A stretch of 28,498 nt of DNA, taken from positions 1-28,498 of the IMG/VR virus record IMGVR_UViG_3300050011_000100. One strand, written 5' to 3'. This DNA comes from a virus. Below are positions 3,001-16,453 of this stretch, piece after piece. The notes below the pieces were generated by a model. It had not been told where the DNA came from and did not search any database. It saw nothing but the letters and a program-made list of their open reading frames with translations. Numbering within the stretch: the stretch's first letter is position 1; each line of letters starts with the position of its first letter. The translations under genes were made by a program, and so were the position numbers.

Positions 3001-4623
3001 TTGGCTTGCTCGCTGGCCGAACTCAAGGCGGCCAAGCTTGAGGAACTGAAAAGCCTTCGCCTAGAGCGCGACCGCCGCGAGGCCGAGCGCCTGGCGAACG
3101 TGGACGCGTTCGAGGTGCTCGGGTACGAACCGATCTGTCTGCCACGGCAGGAGGCGCGTAAGCGCGAAGACGCGGTAATTCCGGCGTCTTGCGGGAAGTG
3201 TCCGCAAGAGCAATTTCACGCCGCGACCGAAGACGACATTTTGTATGGCGGCGCGGCCGGTGGCGGAAAAACCGCCGCAATTGTGGCCGAGTCTCTGAAA
3301 CTGTGCGTTAAGCATCCCGGTATCCGGGTCCTGATCCTCCGCCGGTCGTACGACGAACTGGCCGAGTCGATCTATCCGGAGTTCCAGCGGTTCGGCTGGG
3401 GTGCGGCTCTCGGCGGGCACTGGAACAAGACCGAGAAAGAGGTCACCTTCCCGAACGGGTCGGTTATCCGCCTGCGGTACATGGAGACCCTTGAGGACGC
3501 GTCCCGCCGGCAGGGCGGCGCTTACCAAGCCGTCTTCTGCGATGAGCGGACCTTGCTGGCCCCGGGAATTATCGACGTGATCGCGCTTGAGCGGCTGCGC
3601 TCGGCGCATGGCGTGCCGGTCATCGGCATACGTTCGACCTCGAACCCGGGCGGCCCTTCCCATGGCGAAGTCCGCAACCGCTATGTGGAGCCGACCGGGC
3701 ACGGTCGCAAAGTCGTCACTAACGACCAAGGGCTAACGGTCCGGTTTATTCCGGCAAAAGCGACAGATAACCCTCATCTTGATGAGGCGTACTTCCGCCG
3801 CCTCGACTCGATTGCCGACCCAGCCCGCCGCGCGGCCATGCGGGATGGGGACTGGGGACAGTTCAGCGGCCAGATCTTCAGGCAGTGGCGGCACGACCGC
3901 CACGTTATTGACCCGATAACGCTGCCTGCCAGTTGGAAGAGGTACAACGGCATCGATTGGGGCCATGCCGCGCCCTGGAGTTGCCTTTGGGGTAGTTCTG
4001 ACGAAGATGGCCGTATTTGGGTATACCGGGAGATATACGAAACACAGGTAGGCGAGTCCGAGCAAGCACAGAGCGCGTTGGCGGCAGAGGCTCCCGATGA
4101 GCGGATTATCGCCCGGTACGCAGACGACGCCGTTTTTGCCACGCGGGGAGAGGCCCGCCCGATCAGCGAGATCTGGTCAGAGAACGGCCTGCACGTCATA
4201 GCTGCCGGAAAGGGCCCGGGGTCACGAGTGACCGGGTTGCAGCGCATCCACAGCTACTTGGCGGAAGCCCCGGCGTGCCCCCATCACCGCGCGCTCGGCT
4301 GGGAAACCTGCCCGAAGATGCACGTCTTCTCGACCTGCACCAACCTGATCCACGAAATCGGCAACCTCCCGTACGCCCGCCGGGGCAACGTTGAAGACAG
4401 CGACCCGGCCGCCCCGGACCATGCCGTCGACGCTCTCAGGTACATGCTGCTGAACCTCGGCACCGGCCCATCCTGGCCTGATACGGACCCGCAACCCGAA
4501 CCTCTCGTCGCCGAGCAACTCGAGCAGCGCGGCCAGTTCGCGTACCGCCATAACGACCGTGACGGCCTTGACCCCGACCGCGATCCCCGCGCGGGGAACA
4601 CGCAGCGCCCGCCGTGGGCGTGA
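3001..4623 (+). CDS. terL: Terminase large subunit (packaging ATPase and nuclease)
   Basis: This is the motor that pumps DNA into the prohead and cuts it. The 540-residue protein has the ATPase half with Walker A GGAAGGGKT (83-91), Walker B AVFCDE (177-182) and the coupling motif TSNPGG (213-218). The RNase H-like nuclease half has acidic residues Asp319 (GIDWG), Asp375/376 (YADDAVF) and Asp473/477 (DHAVDALRY). The start is a TTG at 3001 behind a G-rich stretch 5 bases upstream; it lies 12 bases after the small subunit. Between roughly 3160 and 4260 the gene uses noticeably more A/T-ending codons than its neighbours, suggesting a different evolutionary source. Confidence 0.97.
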   Translation: MACSLAELKAAKLEELKSLRLERDRREAERLANVDAFEVLGYEPICLPRQEARKREDAVIPASCGKCPQEQFHAATEDDILYGGAAGGGKTAAIVAESLKLCVKHPGIRVLILRRSYDELAESIYPEFQRFGWGAALGGHWNKTEKEVTFPNGSVIRLRYMETLEDASRRQGGAYQAVFCDERTLLAPGIIDVIALERLRSAHGVPVIGIRSTSNPGGPSHGEVRNRYVEPTGHGRKVVTNDQGLTVRFIPAKATDNPHLDEAYFRRLDSIADPARRAAMRDGDWGQFSGQIFRQWRHDRHVIDPITLPASWKRYNGIDWGHAAPWSCLWGSSDEDGRIWVYREIYETQVGESEQAQSALAAEAPDERIIARYADDAVFATRGEARPISEIWSENGLHVIAAGKGPGSRVTGLQRIHSYLAEAPACPHHRALGWETCPKMHVFSTCTNLIHEIGNLPYARRGNVEDSDPAAPDHAVDALRYMLLNLGTGPSWPDTDPQPEPLVAEQLEQRGQFAYRHNDRDGLDPDRDPRAGNTQRPPWA

Positions 4624-10114: not shown

Positions 10115-10453
10115 ATGCCGCAGCGTTCACCCGTCCTTTGGCACGCGAACTTCGACGACCACGGCAACTCCACCGTCGCCGAGGCGACCGCCGCGATCGC
10201 CGGCAACGCAGCGTCCACCACCGTCGTCAAGGCGGCCGGGGGCCGCCTGATGATCGTCGTGGTCACCGCCGCCGGCACCTCGACGGCCACCACCATCTAC
10301 GACAGTGCCAGTACCGGCACCGGCACCATCCTGGCGGTCATCCCCGCGACGACCGCTGTCGGCACGCAGCTCACCATCAACCTCCCCGCCGCGGTCGGCA
10401 TCACGGTCGTTCAGGGCGCGAGCAGCGTGGGCCTCACCATCGGGTACAACTAG
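10115..10453 (+). CDS. Small beta-rich putative virion protein
   Basis: This 112-residue, Thr/Ala/Val-rich protein has alternating strands (RLMIVVVTAAGTSTATTIYD, TILAVIPA, QLTINLPAAVGITVVQG, VGLTIGYN), as seen in trimeric phage surface proteins. The start ATG has GGAAAGGGG upstream. Its TAG stop overlaps the TAG of the convergent nuclease gene in the tetranucleotide CTAG (10450-10453). The role as decoration or stabilising protein is inferred from composition and place. Confidence 0.6.
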   Translation: MPQRSPVLWHANFDDHGNSTVAEATAAIAGNAASTTVVKAAGGRLMIVVVTAAGTSTATTIYDSASTGTGTILAVIPATTAVGTQLTINLPAAVGITVVQGASSVGLTIGYN

Positions 10454-11688
10454 GCCGCTTTCACGCCGCCGACTCCGGGCCAGTTGTCGGCGATGTCAAG
10501 GATCACCGGCAACGCGGCGATGTCGTAATACTCGCGACCCCAGACGGGCGAGAGTCCGCCATCCCGCAAGCCGGATTGAACGACCCTCTCAAGGGTGGCC
10601 GCATCCGGAAGGCCGGTCATCGTCCTGATGATCCGGGCGTACCCGCGCCTCTTGTGCTCCGCGAGTCGCTGCCTCGGATCGTTTGTGGTGATGCCGAACT
10701 TCACCCGGTTGGCATCGTCGTTCGCCACGACGTAGAAGATGTCCCATTCGCTGTGTGTGCAGTACCGGCAGATTCCCTGCCCCCCGCCCACGGGTCCGGG
10801 GCGGGGAATGCACAGGTGGCCGGCCTTGCAGATGACGCGGTGCGGAACATCACTGCCAAGCCACCGGGGTTCGATGACGAGCCCCCCAAGCGCGGAGACG
10901 CGATCTTTGAACGCCTGCCACACCTGTTCGGGTCCGCGCCCGGCGCAGACCGCGCACGGGCTGCCGCCTCGCGTGACCGTGATCGGATGGGCCATTGTGG
11001 TGTGGCCGTTGGCGCAGATGATCCGGTGCAACTTCCGGGCTCCGAGCCATGCGGGTTCGACCACTCGGCCTCCGAGCGCGGCGATGCCCTCGCAGAATGC
11101 CTGCTCAGTTACGGCAGGATCCTTGCCTGCACAGGTCAGGCAGACGCCGTGCCCCTTGTTGACGTCGCTCGGACGCGGGCGGCACTGGTGACCGTTCGCG
11201 CAGATGACACGGTGCGGAATCTTTGCGCCGAGCCATGATGGTTCAGTGACAAAGCCGGCGACTTCGGCGATCCGCTCGCGGAACGTCCGCTCTGCTGTGG
11301 AGGTGTCGTTTCCGGCGCAGGTGCGGCAGATGCCGCCTCGCGACTGGACGTCATTCGGTCGCGGAGATGACTCGTGACCGTCCTTGCAGATGATCCGGTG
11401 CGGAGTCTGACATCCAAGCCATCCGCCTTCGACGACGACCCCGCCAGCCTCGGTGACCCGCTGCTGGAATGCCAGCCATGCGGTCTTCGGGTCCTTGCCC
11501 GCGCACGCCCGACAGAGACCGCCGCCGCGCCTTAGCCGGGCGGGCATCGGCGTCACTTCGTGTCCCACCTCGCACGTGACGCGGTGCGGCGTGTTGACCC
11601 CGAGCCACTCCGGCTCGATCACTTGACCGCCAAGCTCGGCTACCCGATCGCGGAACTCCTGCCACGCCACCGCCGGGGAGCGCTTCAT
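10450..11688 (-). CDS. GIY-YIG-type nuclease with five tandem zinc modules (putative homing endonuclease)
   Basis: This 412-residue protein has residues 8-317 made of five consecutive 62-residue repeats. Each has a W/F helix start, GG-x-V-x-E-x2-WLG, then C-x3-GH ... GG-x-C-x2-C (zinc ligands at repeat positions 32, 36, 52, 55). The C-terminal domain (318-412) fits the GIY-YIG superfamily, T5orf172/MUG113-like branch: FYVV (318-321), VKFGIT (329-334), the R-rich helix PRQRLAEH, Glu367 (TLERVV) and Glu386 (GREYYD). The modules probably read DNA and the last domain cuts. The repeats resemble in logic the DUF723-type zinc modules fused to phage nucleases. It lies antisense between virion genes, coupled by ATGA to a small upstream partner. 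The zinc array and GIY-YIG fold are seen; homing is inferred. Confidence 0.85.
   Translation of the reverse strand: MKRSPAVAWQEFRDRVAELGGQVIEPEWLGVNTPHRVTCEVGHEVTPMPARLRRGGGLCRACAGKDPKTAWLAFQQRVTEAGGVVVEGGWLGCQTPHRIICKDGHESSPRPNDVQSRGGICRTCAGNDTSTAERTFRERIAEVAGFVTEPSWLGAKIPHRVICANGHQCRPRPSDVNKGHGVCLTCAGKDPAVTEQAFCEGIAALGGRVVEPAWLGARKLHRIICANGHTTMAHPITVTRGGSPCAVCAGRGPEQVWQAFKDRVSALGGLVIEPRWLGSDVPHRVICKAGHLCIPRPGPVGGGQGICRYCTHSEWDIFYVVANDDANRVKFGITTNDPRQRLAEHKRRGYARIIRTMTGLPDAATLERVVQSGLRDGGLSPVWGREYYDIAALPVILDIADNWPGVGGVKAA
10738..11667 (-). repeat. Five tandem 186-bp coding repeats (zinc modules)
   Basis: The five units encode exactly 62 residues each without spacers. Conserved positions are the WLG, PHR-[IV]-x-C, GH, GG-x-C-x2-CAG and D-P linker residues; the other positions vary strongly. 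Nucleotide identity is clearly lower than protein pattern identity, so the duplication is not recent. Confidence 0.9.
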
Positions 11689-11909
11689 CGCGGCGCGGTC
11701 AGGTAGCGCTCGACCTCGTCCATGTCAGCCAAGAAATAGTGCCGCCCGGGTGCCGGTGTCGCCGCTGGCGATCCACCGGCTGCCTCCATGCGGTACCGGC
11801 CGTAGTCCAAGCCGCGCGTGTCTCGCTGCGGCGATTTGACTAGCCGGAGTCCGCGCCGAGCGGCCATGCGGCGGAGGCGATTCTCGCGAACCTTCTCGTC
11901 CTGTTCCAT
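11685..11909 (-). CDS. Small basic actinobacterial protein, partner of the zinc-array nuclease
   Basis: This 74-residue protein has the pattern ENRLRRMAARRGLRLVKSPQ, then DYGRYRM...YFLADMDEVERYL. It is known to me as a widespread short family in actinobacterial chromosomes and mobile elements, of unknown function and often with a basic N-terminal helix. It overlaps the nuclease start by 4 bases, so the two are translated together. A likely leaderless promoter (TATGAT 7 bases before the ATG) drives both. It may help the nuclease bind DNA or regulate the cassette; that is inference from linkage only. Confidence 0.8.
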   Translation of the reverse strand: MEQDEKVRENRLRRMAARRGLRLVKSPQRDTRGLDYGRYRMEAAGGSPAATPAPGRHYFLADMDEVERYLTAPR

Positions 11910-11916
11910 GCTTCAA

Positions 11917-11922
11917 ATCATA
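11917..11922 (-). promoter_or_regulatory. -10 element (TATGAT) of a leaderless promoter for the nuclease cassette
   Basis: On the minus strand TATGAT lies 7 bases before the ATG at 11909. This is the spacing at which transcription would begin at or next to the start codon, as is common in actinobacteria. No convincing -35 hexamer and no ribosome site are present in the AT-rich 30 bases upstream. The same 55-base gap carries the plus-strand ribosome site of the protease gene. Confidence 0.55.
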
Positions 11923-11964
11923 CCCGAATCTATGCCCGGATACATGCCGGGAAGGGGAGGTGCC

Positions 11965-13749
11965 GTGGCTAAGACGATTGCCACCATCACGGGCACCGCC
12001 CTCCGGCCGGGCGTGTCCGCTAACAAGCGCTGGTACAAGCCGGAGCATGTCGCCGAAGCGGTCCGCAAGGCGCAGGAGCGGATCAAATCCGGCGACAAGC
12101 CGATGGTCATGCTGACCTTCCACGGGGCCGATGACAACTCCCAGTTGATCGCAGCCTCGATGTCGGGTGCGTCCCTTAACGAGCGCGGCGAGATGGACTT
12201 CACGGCCGGGATCGTGGATACCCCGGCCGGGTGGGACATCGCCTGGCTCGCCGACACGTCGGACGGCAAGCCGGCGCACCTGAAGAACGTCTCGATTCGC
12301 GGCTACTGGCTCGGCAAGGTCCGCAAGGAGCGCGGCCCTTCAGGCGAGATGGTGGAGACCGCTGACGGGGTCGTTCTCGACGGCGTTGATTTCACCCGTT
12401 CGCCCGGAGTGGCCGGTGCGGAGATCAAGACCTTCGCCTGGGCGAATGGCGGCGCGACCGAGACGACTGAACGAGTCGCGATCACTGAGAGCGCGGAGGC
12501 GAGCGTGACCATCACCGAGGAAACGGCACCCGGGCAGCAAGGCGTGCCCGAGGGGCTGGCGGAGATGCTCGCGCCGCCGCCTCACGTCCTTGAAAACGGG
12601 ACATGCGCCACCTGCGCGCAGGTCGCGGAAGGCGGCAACGCCCCCGGCAACGGCGACAAGCCGTTCGGGGATGTCCCCTATGCCGACCCCGGCTACCAGG
12701 CGGACAAGAAGAAGCGGTACCCCGTCGACACGAAGGCCCACGTCAAGGCCGCGCTCGGCTACCTAGCACAGAAGTCCAATGCGGTCAAGTACTCGTCGAC
12801 TCAGCTCAAGCGGGTCAAGAGCAGGGTCATGGCGGCGGCGAAGAAGTTCGGCGTCACCGTGTCCGCCGAGTCCGCCGGGTGGACGTTCGACGCCCCGGTG
12901 CAGGTCGGCGAGGCACTGGCCGAGCACATGGGCATCCCGTCGTGCGCGGGCTCGTGGTCCGTCCGCGCATCTAACGGCCCGGTCGACATCTGCCTGTCCT
13001 CGTACAGCGTGGACCCCGAAGACCTCGACGTCATCCTCCGTGCCGCCGCCGACGCCGCGTGCAAGGCACTGGCGGCGCTGGACCCGGACATGGACGGCGA
13101 CGTCGACGTGCCCGGCGTCGGCGCCAACAGCGACCCGAACGGCGACGCGGGCGAGTCCGCGGCCGAGGGCGAGCAGGAAACAGAAGACCAGGCAGCCGGT
13201 CCGGCCGCCGCGACAACGGAAACGGAGGGTTCCATGACGGAGCCTGCCACCCCGGCGGCGGAAACCGCGCCGGGAATCGACCCCAAGGCTCTCGCTGAGG
13301 CGGTCGCCGGCATTCTCGGCGCCCGCGATGAGGCGAAGGCCACCGCGAAGCAGGAGAAGCGGGCCCGCAGGGCAGCCGAGGAGGCCGCCGCCGCGAAGAC
13401 CGCGACCGAGACCGCCAAGCCCGCCCCCGCCACGGTCGCCGAGACCGACGACCAGCGCCGCGCCCGCCTTCAGGCGGTCGTCGACGCCCAGTTCGCCACG
13501 GCGGCCACAGCCGAGGGCCTGTCCGCCGTCAAGACCGACGAGCAGCTCGTCGCCGAGATGCTCGAGGAGCGCATGATCCCGCTCCGGCAGGCACGCGCCG
13601 AGGGCGGCGGGGTTCAGCGCAAGGGCATCGCCCAGCTCGAGGCCCTCGCCGACGCCCCCGGTGTCAACGCGAAGCTCTCGACGGCGAGCAATGAGGAACT
13701 GGCCGCGCTGGCCGGTGCCGCGTTCGGCTCCCACGCCGGCCGCCGCTAA
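11965..13749 (+). CDS. Capsid maturation protease fused to scaffolding protein
   Basis: This 594-residue protein starts at GTG 11965 behind GGGGAGGT; earlier in-frame starts would overlap the antisense gene and give unnatural residues. Residues about 5-160 resemble prohead proteases, with candidate His53 (MLTFHGADD) and Ser110 (HLKNVSIRGYW) and the closing VDFTRSPGV. Residues about 239-297 (ADPGYQADKKKRYPVDTKAH then VKAALGYL...) fit DUF6582. Residues 325-400 include a Cys-containing region and the Asp-rich DPDMDGDVDV. The last 170 residues are Ala/Glu/Lys-rich helices with a basic C-terminus, typical of scaffolds. An internal ATG (13234) with its own ribosome site may make scaffold separately. 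Position ahead of the capsid gene is standard. Confidence 0.85.
   Translation: MAKTIATITGTALRPGVSANKRWYKPEHVAEAVRKAQERIKSGDKPMVMLTFHGADDNSQLIAASMSGASLNERGEMDFTAGIVDTPAGWDIAWLADTSDGKPAHLKNVSIRGYWLGKVRKERGPSGEMVETADGVVLDGVDFTRSPGVAGAEIKTFAWANGGATETTERVAITESAEASVTITEETAPGQQGVPEGLAEMLAPPPHVLENGTCATCAQVAEGGNAPGNGDKPFGDVPYADPGYQADKKKRYPVDTKAHVKAALGYLAQKSNAVKYSSTQLKRVKSRVMAAAKKFGVTVSAESAGWTFDAPVQVGEALAEHMGIPSCAGSWSVRASNGPVDICLSSYSVDPEDLDVILRAAADAACKALAALDPDMDGDVDVPGVGANSDPNGDAGESAAEGEQETEDQAAGPAAATTETEGSMTEPATPAAETAPGIDPKALAEAVAGILGARDEAKATAKQEKRARRAAEEAAAAKTATETAKPAPATVAETDDQRRARLQAVVDAQFATAATAEGLSAVKTDEQLVAEMLEERMIPLRQARAEGGGVQRKGIAQLEALADAPGVNAKLSTASNEELAALAGAAFGSHAGRR
13234..13749 (+). CDS. Scaffolding protein from an internal in-frame start
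   Basis: Inside the protease gene an ATG at 13234 is preceded by GGAGGG (13224-13229) with a 4-base spacer, and it is in frame. The 171-residue product starts MTEPATPAAETAPG and covers exactly the helical scaffold part, ending in the basic ...AAFGSHAGRR. This is the arrangement of lambda C/Nu3, where protease and scaffold share a C-terminus. The motif and domain border are seen; use of the start is inferred. Confidence 0.55.
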   Translation: MTEPATPAAETAPGIDPKALAEAVAGILGARDEAKATAKQEKRARRAAEEAAAAKTATETAKPAPATVAETDDQRRARLQAVVDAQFATAATAEGLSAVKTDEQLVAEMLEERMIPLRQARAEGGGVQRKGIAQLEALADAPGVNAKLSTASNEELAALAGAAFGSHAGRR

Positions 13750-13847
13750 ATCCGCTTCCCGCTTCACCTGTTCAGCCCGCTTAACCATCCTGGCCGCCAG
13801 CCGACCGCTGGTGCTCGAAGGGCAGAAATGGCCTCCCGCTGACCACC

Positions 13848-13881
13848 GAAGGCCCCGCCGTGTGCGGGGCCTTCCGCTTTC
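13848..13881 (+). terminator. Strong hairpin terminator directly ahead of the capsid gene
   Basis: An 11-bp perfect stem pairs 13848-13858 (GAAGGCCCCGC) with 13864-13874 (GCGGGGCCTTC) around loop CGTGT, followed by CGCTTTC. It sits 15 bases ahead of the capsid ATG's GAGGAG ribosome site. No clear promoter lies between, so it may be partial or act as a processing/stability hairpin for capsid mRNA. The rest of the 13750-13895 gap shows nothing else. Confidence 0.7.
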
Positions 13882-13895
13882 CCAGAGGAGACCTC

Positions 13896-15272
13896 ATGTC
13901 CGAGATCCGCGAGGCGCTTACCGCCGCGGGCGCCAGTCCGTTCGTCCCGAAGCTCATCGATCCGACGCTGGTGGAGTACCAGCGCCGGTTCGCGCCGTGG
14001 TGCCGGGCGATCCCGACGAAGAAGACGAACAGCACCCAGTACTTCTTCAACACCCGCACGGTGGTCGTGTCCGGCGGGGCGGTGCCCGACGGCGGCGCCC
14101 GCACCGTCTCCACCAGCACCTACCAGCAGGGCAGCTTCACGATGGCCCACATCCAGGCCGTCGGCAGTGTCACCGGGTACGCGCAGGCGGTCACCACCGA
14201 CCTCGTTGACCTGCGTGCCACTGAAATCAACGGGGCCATCAAGGGCTACTACTGGGACATCGAGACGTTCTGCGGGTGGGGCAACGCGGCGTCGACCCTG
14301 AACCAGGCTCAGCCCCAGTTCGACGGGCTCGACACCCAGATCCAGCAGTTCACGGGCGGGACGCAGAACACGATCGACTACGCGGGCCGGTCGCTGTCCC
14401 TGTCGACGCTCGACGAGCTCGCGGTGCTGGTGTCGGGGAACGCCGCCGAGGTGGTGTACAACCCGGGGTGGATGTACGTCATGTCGGTCAGCTCAGAGGC
14501 GCGGATCGCGCAGCTCCTGACCGCGCAGCAGCGGTACAACAGCGTGGAGATCGCCGCCGGCCTGGTCGTGGCCACGTACAAGAACATCCCGCTCGTGCCG
14601 TCGTCGTTCCTCAGCACGCTGGGGTACCAGATGGGCACGGTCACGGCGGCGACCGCCACGACCGGGGGCACCCTCCCGGCGTCGACCACCTACCGGTACG
14701 TGGTGTCGGCCGTCATCGCCCGGCAGGGCGAGATCCTGCCCTCGGTGGAGGTGTCGCAGGCCACCGGCGGCAGCACGTCGACCAACACGGTCACCCTGTC
14801 GTTCTCCCAGCCGGGCGGGCAGGACGGGCTCGGCCCGCAGCTGTACAAGGTGTACCGGTCGCCGGCGAACGGGGTCCCCGGGTCCGAAACCTTCTTGGGC
14901 TACGTCGACTCCACGGTCGGGCTCGCGTCCGACCAGGTGACGCCGATCCTCGCCACCCAGATCGTCGACACCGGCACTGCGCTCGTCCCGCAGGCCAGCG
15001 GCCCCATCGTTCCGAGCATCCTCCCGGTGCAGTACTACAGCACCAACGCGGCCATGCTGCCGCCGGGAGCCGGTCAGGAGAACATCTACCTGATGTCCCG
15101 CGACCCGGGCAACATCGTCCGGCCGTTCGTTCGCGAGGCGCTTCCGCTAGATGTGTTTCCAACCACTTCGTCCCCGGATAGCATGCCATTCGCCATAATG
15201 GGGGATACGTGCTTGGCGGTGCGAACGCCCAAGTTTGTCGGACGTGCGTACCGTGTGGCGGTAGCGGTCTAG
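13896..15272 (+). CDS. Major capsid protein with an inserted Ig/FN3-like domain
   Basis: This is the shell protein, 458 residues, called by place (after protease-scaffold, before connector), strong ribosome site (AGAGGAG) and pattern. The N-arm is helical (MSEIREALTAAGASPFVPKL). Regions like YFFNTRT, STYQQGSFTMAHIQAVGSVT and DLRATEINGAIKGYYWDIET read as HK97-fold E-loop and spine. Residues about 246-345 are Thr/Ser-rich and beta-like (TYRYVVSAVIARQGEILPSV, QLYKVYRSPANG), consistent with an FN3/Ig-like surface insertion. The last 44 codons (from 15138) switch to A/T-ending codons (16 of 44 against 4 of 44 in the preceding block, hand count) although the protein stays sensible. This suggests replacement of the 3' end next to the HNH gene. 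Confidence 0.85.
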   Translation: MSEIREALTAAGASPFVPKLIDPTLVEYQRRFAPWCRAIPTKKTNSTQYFFNTRTVVVSGGAVPDGGARTVSTSTYQQGSFTMAHIQAVGSVTGYAQAVTTDLVDLRATEINGAIKGYYWDIETFCGWGNAASTLNQAQPQFDGLDTQIQQFTGGTQNTIDYAGRSLSLSTLDELAVLVSGNAAEVVYNPGWMYVMSVSSEARIAQLLTAQQRYNSVEIAAGLVVATYKNIPLVPSSFLSTLGYQMGTVTAATATTGGTLPASTTYRYVVSAVIARQGEILPSVEVSQATGGSTSTNTVTLSFSQPGGQDGLGPQLYKVYRSPANGVPGSETFLGYVDSTVGLASDQVTPILATQIVDTGTALVPQASGPIVPSILPVQYYSTNAAMLPPGAGQENIYLMSRDPGNIVRPFVREALPLDVFPTTSSPDSMPFAIMGDTCLAVRTPKFVGRAYRVAVAV

Positions 15273-15322
15273 TTGTCCGTTTCAGTCTGGCGGGTCAGCC
15301 GGAGACTTCACGCACTGATCCG

Positions 15323-15328
15323 CTAGAC
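15323..15328 (+). promoter_or_regulatory. Possible -10 element (TAGACT) for the HNH gene
   Basis: TAGACT is a typical actinobacterial -10 hexamer. It lies just after the capsid stop and 13 bases ahead of the hairpin at 15341. No good -35 is found 17-18 bases upstream, so the call is weak. Confidence 0.35.
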
Positions 15329-15340
15329 TGTTCGCATAAG

Positions 15341-15372
15341 GTTCCGGAGGGTGCTAGAACACCCCCCGGAAC
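15341..15372 (+). terminator. Hairpin between capsid and HNH genes (terminator or leader structure)
   Basis: A 13-base stem with one A/C mismatch pairs GTTCCGGAGGGTG (15341-15353) with CACCCCCCGGAAC (15360-15372); the loop is CTAGAA. No T-tract follows, so it may be a transcription-processing or leader hairpin rather than a strong terminator. It is part of the 131-base gap after the capsid gene. Confidence 0.5.
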
Positions 15373-15403
15373 GGACATCATCGATCTGATTGGGCAGACC
15401 GAC

Positions 15404-16021
15404 ATGGACGATCGTACGCTCGCGCTGTTCATGAGCAAAGTGGAGATACAGCCGGACGGCTGCTGGCGCTGGACCGGCCACATCAAGAAAGACGGCTACG
15501 GAGCCTTCTACATCGACGGCGCGAACCGCCTCGCGCACCGCGTGGCTTACGAGCACTTCATCGGCCCGATCCCGGACGGCCTTGAACTGGACCACCTGTG
15601 TCACACCAGGAGTTCGGGATGTGCTGGCGGCAAGACCGACTTGCATCGGCGGTGCGTCAACGCCATCCGTGATCTTGAGCCGGTAACGGGCATAGAGAAC
15701 ATCCGCCGGGGTGCGGCGCTCATCACCCACTGCCCGCAGAATCACGAGTACACGCCCGAGAACACGTACTGGGCGCCGAACGGCGGCCGGGAATGCCGCG
15801 AGTGCCGCGCGGAAACCGCACGCCGTTGGGTGGCGGAGCATAACCCGGGCGTCCTTCACGGCACCGAGACCCACTGCCCGCAGAACCACCCGTATTCGGG
15901 CGACAACCTGTACATCATCCCGTCAACGGGCGGGCGGGTGTGCCGGATTTGCAAGCGCGAGCAGGGCCGCGAGTGGATGCGTGCCAAGCGCGCTGCGGCC
16001 AAGGCGGCTCGAATCGCATGA
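15404..16021 (+). CDS. HNH endonuclease with two C-terminal zinc modules (putative homing endonuclease)
   Basis: This is a 205-residue free-standing HNH protein. Residues 17-104 follow the phage HNH_3 pattern: DGCWRWTG, AHRVAYEHFIGPIPDGLELD then H64 (LDHLC), Cys73/Cys84 and CVN (Asn86) before LEPVTGIENIRRG. Where relatives have a His before LEPV, this one has Asp90 (RDLEPV), so the third catalytic/metal position is altered. Two zinc modules follow: HCPQNH...GGRECREC (109-134) and HCPQNH...GGRVCRIC (157-183). The end is basic. The ATG at 15404 is chosen by homology of the start; Met10 at 15431 is an alternative, and no good ribosome site is visible. It lies right after the capsid gene, a classic homing site. 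Confidence 0.88.
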   Translation: MDDRTLALFMSKVEIQPDGCWRWTGHIKKDGYGAFYIDGANRLAHRVAYEHFIGPIPDGLELDHLCHTRSSGCAGGKTDLHRRCVNAIRDLEPVTGIENIRRGAALITHCPQNHEYTPENTYWAPNGGRECRECRAETARRWVAEHNPGVLHGTETHCPQNHPYSGDNLYIIPSTGGRVCRICKREQGREWMRAKRAAAKAARIA

Positions 16022-16042: not shown

Positions 16043-16453
16043 ATGTGGGTCCGTAAAGAGTCCGGCGGCACTACCGTCAACTGGCAGCGTGTCCCGTACG
16101 AGTGGCCGGATGACGGCTCGGTGATCGAGGTCCCGCCGGAGTTCGGTGCCGAACTGCTGGGCATCCGTGGCGGCGGGTTCTCCGAGGTCCCCGAGCCTGA
16201 GCAGCCGGAGGCCATCACCGAGCCGGGGCCGTCCGGGGAGATCACCGAACCGGGACCGGTCGCGACAGTCACCGAGGGCGAGGGCTCGCAGGAGCCGGGG
16301 GAAGGCGGCGCCGCCGGCCCGGATGGTTCCGAGGACGACGGTGGCGGCGGCGACCCGGACGGCGATCCTGCCGCCGAGGGTGACGTCAAGCCGGAGACCG
16401 TCAAGGCTGCCCGTAACGGCCGCGCCAAGGCCAAGGACGCCCCGGAAGCCTGA
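16043..16453 (+). CDS. Small acidic head protein candidate
   Basis: This 136-residue protein has a short folded start (MWVRKESGGTTVNWQRVPYE then WPDDGSVIEVPPEFGAELLG), followed by a long Glu/Pro/Gly/Asp-rich low-complexity region and a basic end (KAARNGRAKAKDAPEA). The site AAGGAGA lies 10 bases before the ATG. The gene order (capsid, small acidic, connector) is common in actinophages, where this protein is of unknown role. The gene at 20633 has the same plan: folded start and disordered charged tail. Confidence 0.7.
   Translation: MWVRKESGGTTVNWQRVPYEWPDDGSVIEVPPEFGAELLGIRGGGFSEVPEPEQPEAITEPGPSGEITEPGPVATVTEGEGSQEPGEGGAAGPDGSEDDGGGGDPDGDPAAEGDVKPETVKAARNGRAKAKDAPEA

Follow-up and report, generated by a model that had tools for sequence, protein, structure and literature searches.

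The window comprises 28,498 bases and is a complete viral record. It probably harbours two freestanding nuclease genes of the homing type, unrelated to each other, within the capsid gene cluster of an actinobacterial-type phage, and their products bear two distinct kinds of zinc module. In the product of one gene, a GIY-YIG protein, five tandem zinc units of ~62 aa, probably of the CapR/DUF4379 class, would form the target-recognition arm; the other product, an HNH_3 protein, would end in two treble-clef-like fingers of ~40 aa, distinct from the long units. The two sets are different modules that have only a zinc core of ~28 residues in common, and the resemblance of this C..GH..CxxC core is distant (at the level of a superfamily) or convergent and is not the trace of a recent transfer between these two genes.

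A zinc-ligand motif is found in both nuclease genes

The original prediction had described a motif C-x3-[GN]H shared by the two proteins. The pattern is real but, as written, one residue too long; the correct form is C-x2-[GN]-H-x(15-17)-C-x2-C. Exactly seven matches to it were found in the six frames of the window, five in the GIY-YIG ORF, two in the HNH ORF and none elsewhere. Residue shuffling gave an expectation of 0.0006 and 0.0004 per protein (<0.001), and the number of matches in triplet-shuffled windows was 0. The spacing from His to the second Cys pair is 15 in all five GIY-YIG units and 16 and 17 in the HNH units. The Gly-Gly said to precede this pair in both proteins was indeed present in both HNH units (GGRE and GGRV) and in three of the five GIY-YIG units, but in a different register, and it was absent from the other two (GGGL, RGGI, GHGV, GGSP and GQGI in units 1 to 5).

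The GIY-YIG protein carries five long zinc units

The GIY-YIG (T5orf172-like) protein of 412 aa is encoded on the minus strand (ORF 10450-11688, feature 10453..11688); the five zinc units make up its N-terminal part, and the nuclease domain lies at the C-terminus. The GIY-YIG/T5orf172 catalytic domain (10453..10746, minus strand) was assigned by its conserved residues and by an Slx1-like predicted structure. An alignment of 17 sequences revealed conservation of FYV..KFG, Arg149 and Glu177/Glu196, and the catalytic part of the model (residues 115-222) resembled Slx1 with a Z-score of 6.2 and an rmsd of 3.2 over 90 residues, which points to a GIY-YIG fold with the conserved Arg and Glu. The AF2 model, which includes zinc units 4 and 5, had a pLDDT of 91.8, and its named neighbours in a library of viral structures were CapR, treble clef, zinc-ribbon, T5orf172 and homing-endonuclease proteins. 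The protein matched the endonuclease family phrog_681 (8.7e-29); the scores with Pfam T5orf172 (E 0.0034, 18.3 bits) and Pfam GIY-YIG (13 bits) were below the cut-offs of 20 and 22.6, respectively.

The five long units are located, all on the minus strand, at 11491..11688 (unit 1, CEVGH...GGGLCRAC), 11305..11490 (unit 2, CKDGH...RGGICRTC), 11119..11304 (unit 3, CANGH...GHGVCLTC), 10933..11118 (unit 4, CANGH...GGSPCAVC) and 10747..10932 (unit 5, CKAGH...GQGICRYC); they were delimited by motif and alignment and, in the case of units 4 and 5, also by the AF2 model. Each has a conserved N-terminal half of the form F..R..A..GG.V.EP.WLG...PHR, and 9 of the 15 positions invariant across the five units lie upstream of the first ligand Cys. 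The HNH units contain no counterpart of this half. In the AF2 model, which is without zinc, strands 31-34 and 40-43 are predicted on either side of the C-x3-H turn of a long unit; a short helix (45-49) comes next, and the CxxC (C55/C58) has no helix on it.

Pfam CapR and DUF4379 did not match the window protein directly up to an E-value of 10, a search in which the fast filters may drop weak matches. Relatives and profiles nevertheless link the long unit to repeats of the CapR/DUF4379 type, to which it would belong. Relatives found by tblastn are encoded in phages of E. coli, Vibrio, Streptomyces, Bacillus and Enterococcus; they match CapR (PF21817, E down to 2.7e-42) and DUF4379 (PF14311, 'probable treble clef'), and several also carry T5orf172, while others have a REase_MTES_1575-like domain (L040 and, weakly, L037). 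One CapR-positive protein, that of FL04, was reached from the window protein by tblastn with 5e-12. Furthermore, a profile built on 23 units from the branch of the window protein matched CapR/DUF4379-type units with 98% over 61 of 63 columns, and with 116 units the match amounted to 98.7%.

When long units were searched for by a DNA pattern of the module only, all 18 proteins found ended in a GIY-YIG domain, and an association with HNH was not seen among these 18. PHROG 559 matches the long units and bears the name 'HNH endonuclease', but this name was discounted as evidence for a fusion of long unit and HNH, since the PHROG 559 member in phage EA1 has no Pfam HNH match. Compared with the nearest GIY-YIG relative (L048), the window units were 74, 69, 67, 66 and 62% identical to the units at the same positions and 39-61% identical to units at other positions; the order of the units matches that of their orthologues. 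The collected relatives contain 2, 3, 4, 5 or 6 long units. The array of L068:3854-5263(+) has units up to 87% identical to each other, which suggests a recent unit duplication there. Two identical GIY-YIG relatives (L063 and L064) are located ~90 kb apart on one contig of Streptomyces acidicola, and in Enterococcus phages (L039, L042) a CapR/DUF4379-type repeat protein is flanked on each side by a piece with the annotation terminase large subunit.

The HNH_3 protein ends in two short zinc fingers

The HNH_3 protein of 205 aa is encoded at 15404..16021 on the plus strand, with the major capsid gene (13860..15272, plus strand; phrog_752, 6.6e-36) directly upstream. The mechanical ORF starts with GTG at 15209; the ATG at 15404 is the more likely start, because the GTG lies inside the capsid gene and the closest relative, L074, aligns only from residue 65. 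The protein matched HNH_3 (8.8e-8, 32.1 bits, cut-off 24.8) and phrog_826 (1.5e-59). Its model (pLDDT 87.8) was similar to I-PpoI (Z 6.1) and I-HmuI (Z 5.9), and the nearest named models in the viral library were HNH nucleases, consistent with an HNH_3 domain of predicted His-Me fold. The H-N-H motif is incomplete: DH and Asn are kept, but the last His is replaced by Asp in the window protein (CVNAIRDLEPVT). The same position is Asp in L074 and Thr in L002, and most relatives have CVNPxHLE. This exchange may alter the activity of the protein, which is therefore uncertain; Asp could still bind metal, so that the exchange lowers our confidence in activity and not in the HNH_3 assignment.

The two fingers, located at 15722..15850 (HCPQNHEYTPENTYWAPNGGRECREC plus helix) and 15866..15994 (HCPQNHPYSGDNLYIIPSTGGRVCRIC plus helix) on the plus strand, were identified by motif, alignment and predicted structure. 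They conform to a unit of ~40 aa with the consensus THCPxGHEYTPENTY...GxRxCRxCRRER. In the prediction, a knuckle with C110 and H114 is followed by a hairpin (121-123 and 129-131) and by C131 and C134, which open a helix (132-146). This would be the treble-clef order, that is a knuckle, a beta-hairpin and a helix whose first turn bears the last two ligands (PMC4999995). The C-terminal helix into which the HNH units run is missing from the long units in their predicted structure.

The short finger is combined with several nuclease families

The short finger has no matching model in Pfam or NCBIfam. A survey with a DNA pattern of the finger yielded 111 proteins among the matches listed, and the counts are to be read as a sample. 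One copy was present in 101 of these listed proteins and two in the other 10. The Pfam families found in these 111 listed proteins were HNH_3 (77), NUMOD4 (7), LAGLIDADG_3 (4), NUMOD3 (3), T5orf172 (3), Recombinase (3), Endonuclease_7, Phage_integrase, HNH and HNH_5 (1 each) and others, and no listed family explained the finger itself. Three long proteins (L153:1668-3638(-), L208:3530-5131(-) and L222:4593-6371(+)) consist of a Recombinase-like N-terminus, NUMOD3, a finger, T5orf172, HNH_3 and a second finger, and thus unite two nuclease domains in one chain. The protein L169:4-1452(-) is a tyrosine integrase with a C-terminal short finger, and the HNH_3 protein L084:8014-9255(+), whose gene follows the capsid gene at the same place as in the window, has six short fingers.

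Given this range of partner domains, the idea of a small zinc module common to several nuclease families holds for the short finger; that one and the same module is shared by the two genes of this phage is not supported. Copy number was also considered as a property of the nuclease family and rejected: there are 2-6 long units and 1, 2 or 6 short fingers, and since the number varies inside each family, 'two versus five' says nothing specific.

The two zinc modules share a core only

The profile-profile comparison that had been proposed as a check gave a match for the core, but the N-terminal half of the long unit had no partner. With the first alignments, hhalign aligned long unit and short finger with 93.4% over 27 columns, and with 136 short and 116 long rows with 95.6% over 28 columns; the long unit meets the short finger in this core only, which speaks against the same module in both genes. 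When the columns of the short finger were shuffled with the ligands and the conserved Gly/Asn kept in place, the score dropped to 17.8 +/- 3.1 versus 36.1 observed, and the observed match was reached by none of 80 shuffles and, in an earlier run, by none of 200. A chance resemblance of the ligands only, in its simple form, is ruled out by these shuffles. Two other segments of HNH proteins with conserved Cys, used as controls, both remained below 1%. On the other hand, the profile signal was gone after masking of the four ligands (probability 0.55%). The HMM of each module family ranked the other family close after its own members, and core identity across the two sets outside the ligands was 10-38%. 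Searches of solved structures with both module profiles gave only weak matches, to zinc sites of ribosomal uS14, and the VIA-align rows of the modules were weak as well (long unit, 6hiw_DS with Z 2.9; short finger, HHARI/ARIH1 with Z 2.5).

That the modules are different follows from the unit length, the N-terminal half of the long unit, the predicted secondary structure and the association of long units with GIY-YIG in 18 of 18 proteins. A single shared and recently shuffled module was rejected on account of the extent of the units, orthology and domain association. That the two genes of this phage recently swapped a module, the copy number (2 versus 5) setting the specificity, as originally predicted, is highly improbable: both genes have the same class of ligand spacing, but the long units are orthologous one by one to those of the nearest GIY-YIG relative, identity of the cores outside the ligands is low, the pattern survey found no long units with HNH, and the copy number ranges from 2-6 and 1-6 inside the two families.

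Two accounts of the core come into consideration; both are compatible with two homing-type nucleases and they differ on the origin of the core. The similarity of the core beyond the ligands makes a distant common origin plausible, but homology stays unproven as nothing is left in ligand-masked profiles. Short finger and long unit could descend from one ancestral zinc module that was passed between nuclease families over long times, and either the long unit would have gained its N-terminal half or the short finger would have been trimmed; we regard this as possible and hold it tentatively. It would explain the core match, which ligand-, Gly- and Asn-keeping shuffles did not reach and other Cys-rich segments of HNH proteins did not show, as well as the mutual ranking by the HMMs, and in L153, L208 and L222 the short finger indeed adjoins a T5orf172 domain. 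Against it stand the loss of similarity upon masking, the differences in predicted hairpin and helix, the small number of controls (two segments) and the fact that treble-clef families may have emerged independently (PMC4999995). Alternatively, two small zinc sites made of a CPxGH knuckle and a CxxC may have converged; the need for Gly/Asn in the knuckle turn and the small size of the fingers would account for the likeness. This has close to an even chance in our view: most of the score comes from the ligands and the residues of the turn, as the masking indicates, and the predicted elements around the zinc site differ, but the residual match beyond ligands and Gly/Asn was well above that of the shuffles. 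A further-reaching proposal, which we consider rather unlikely, traces short finger and CapR/DUF4379 repeat back to a single ancient zinc module whose branches serve phages as interchangeable DNA-targeting parts. If true, an ancient module would have been recombined with HNH_3, Endo VII, LAGLIDADG, GIY-YIG and REase_MTES_1575-like nucleases and a tyrosine integrase.

Relation to known homing nucleases

The pair probably adds one more case to the known phage homing nucleases, equipped with two finger types that are already widespread. A survey that prints DUF4397 in places has described T5orf172 homing endonucleases in which zinc fingers of the CapR, DUF723 or DUF4379 type are repeated in varying copy number, with recombination between the repeats (PMC10448857). 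Like those of ICP1 (gp174/gp165), T5-like phages and Vibrio phage Helene (PMC10448857), the window GIY-YIG protein has tandem N-terminal zinc repeats of variable number and a C-terminal GIY-YIG-type domain, and its gene lies beside structural genes and is present in some relatives and absent from others. Unlike them, its units form a divergent branch (C-x2-GH-x15-CxxC, WLG...PHR) below Pfam detection, and its named relatives are mostly in genomes of Streptomyces and Kitasatospora, the rest in viral contigs. The same class of zinc unit makes up CapR, a PLE-encoded repressor derived from the DNA-binding domains of a T5orf172 homing endonuclease; unlike the window nuclease, CapR is a transcriptional repressor of the capsid operon of the helper phage (PMC10448857).

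The HNH protein resembles freestanding HNH_3 phage endonucleases (I-HmuI/I-PpoI fold; phrog_826) in its HNH_3 core, its C-terminal finger and its place behind a capsid gene, but differs from them in having two fingers, the exchange of the last motif His for Asp and a finger without a Pfam or NCBIfam match. Small DNA-binding modules in variable patterns are known from phage homing nucleases of the HNH, GIY-YIG and EDxHD families (PMC3943268, PMC1564403), and the short finger would be a comparable module; unlike these NUMODs it has no Pfam NUMOD match, and some of the proteins that bear it also have NUMOD3 or NUMOD4. A divergent repeat-bearing GIY-YIG branch and a very common, apparently uncatalogued short finger occur in one phage. 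Given its spread over several nuclease families and an integrase, the short finger deserves a name as a candidate targeting module.

Both genes occupy sites that are empty in related phages

The site behind the capsid gene is occupied by an HNH gene in the window, L074 (76%), L002 (66%) and L084 (36%). In L075-L083 it is empty, and the homolog of 16043-16453 comes ~80-350 bases after the capsid gene. The GIY-YIG gene is inserted between 10115-10453 and 11818-13749; this site is occupied in the window, L080/L081 (45%) and L100 (65%) and empty in L075, L076, L078, L082 and L083. L080/L081 carry the GIY-YIG gene but lack the HNH gene, so the distribution of one does not depend on that of the other. 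Furthermore, GIY-YIG relatives are located at other places of related genomes (L052, L058, L059); the one in L052 is flanked by the homologs of 2401-2988 and 3001-4623, two regions with a gap of 12 bases between them in the window. A 74-aa ORF (11685-11909, minus strand) overlaps the start of the GIY-YIG gene; at its site it was matched only in the GIY-bearing L080/L081 (49%), with no match in the empty-site loci or in L100.

Both genes are thus present or absent at fixed sites among relatives. Their location beside capsid genes, at sites that are empty in related phages, is the pattern of freestanding homing endonuclease genes, and we infer zinc binding, DNA binding, cleavage and homing for both proteins. 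The zinc units would line the target DNA and bring the cleavage domain into place; when an allele without the gene is cut, the gene-bearing copy would serve as the template for repair and the gene would spread. The empty sites in close relatives would allow direct tests of homing and of the role of finger number. Elsewhere in the window, a stretch of 66 bases (826-891) is ~86% identical to a stretch annotated as transposase in mycobacteriophages, for example ShiLan.
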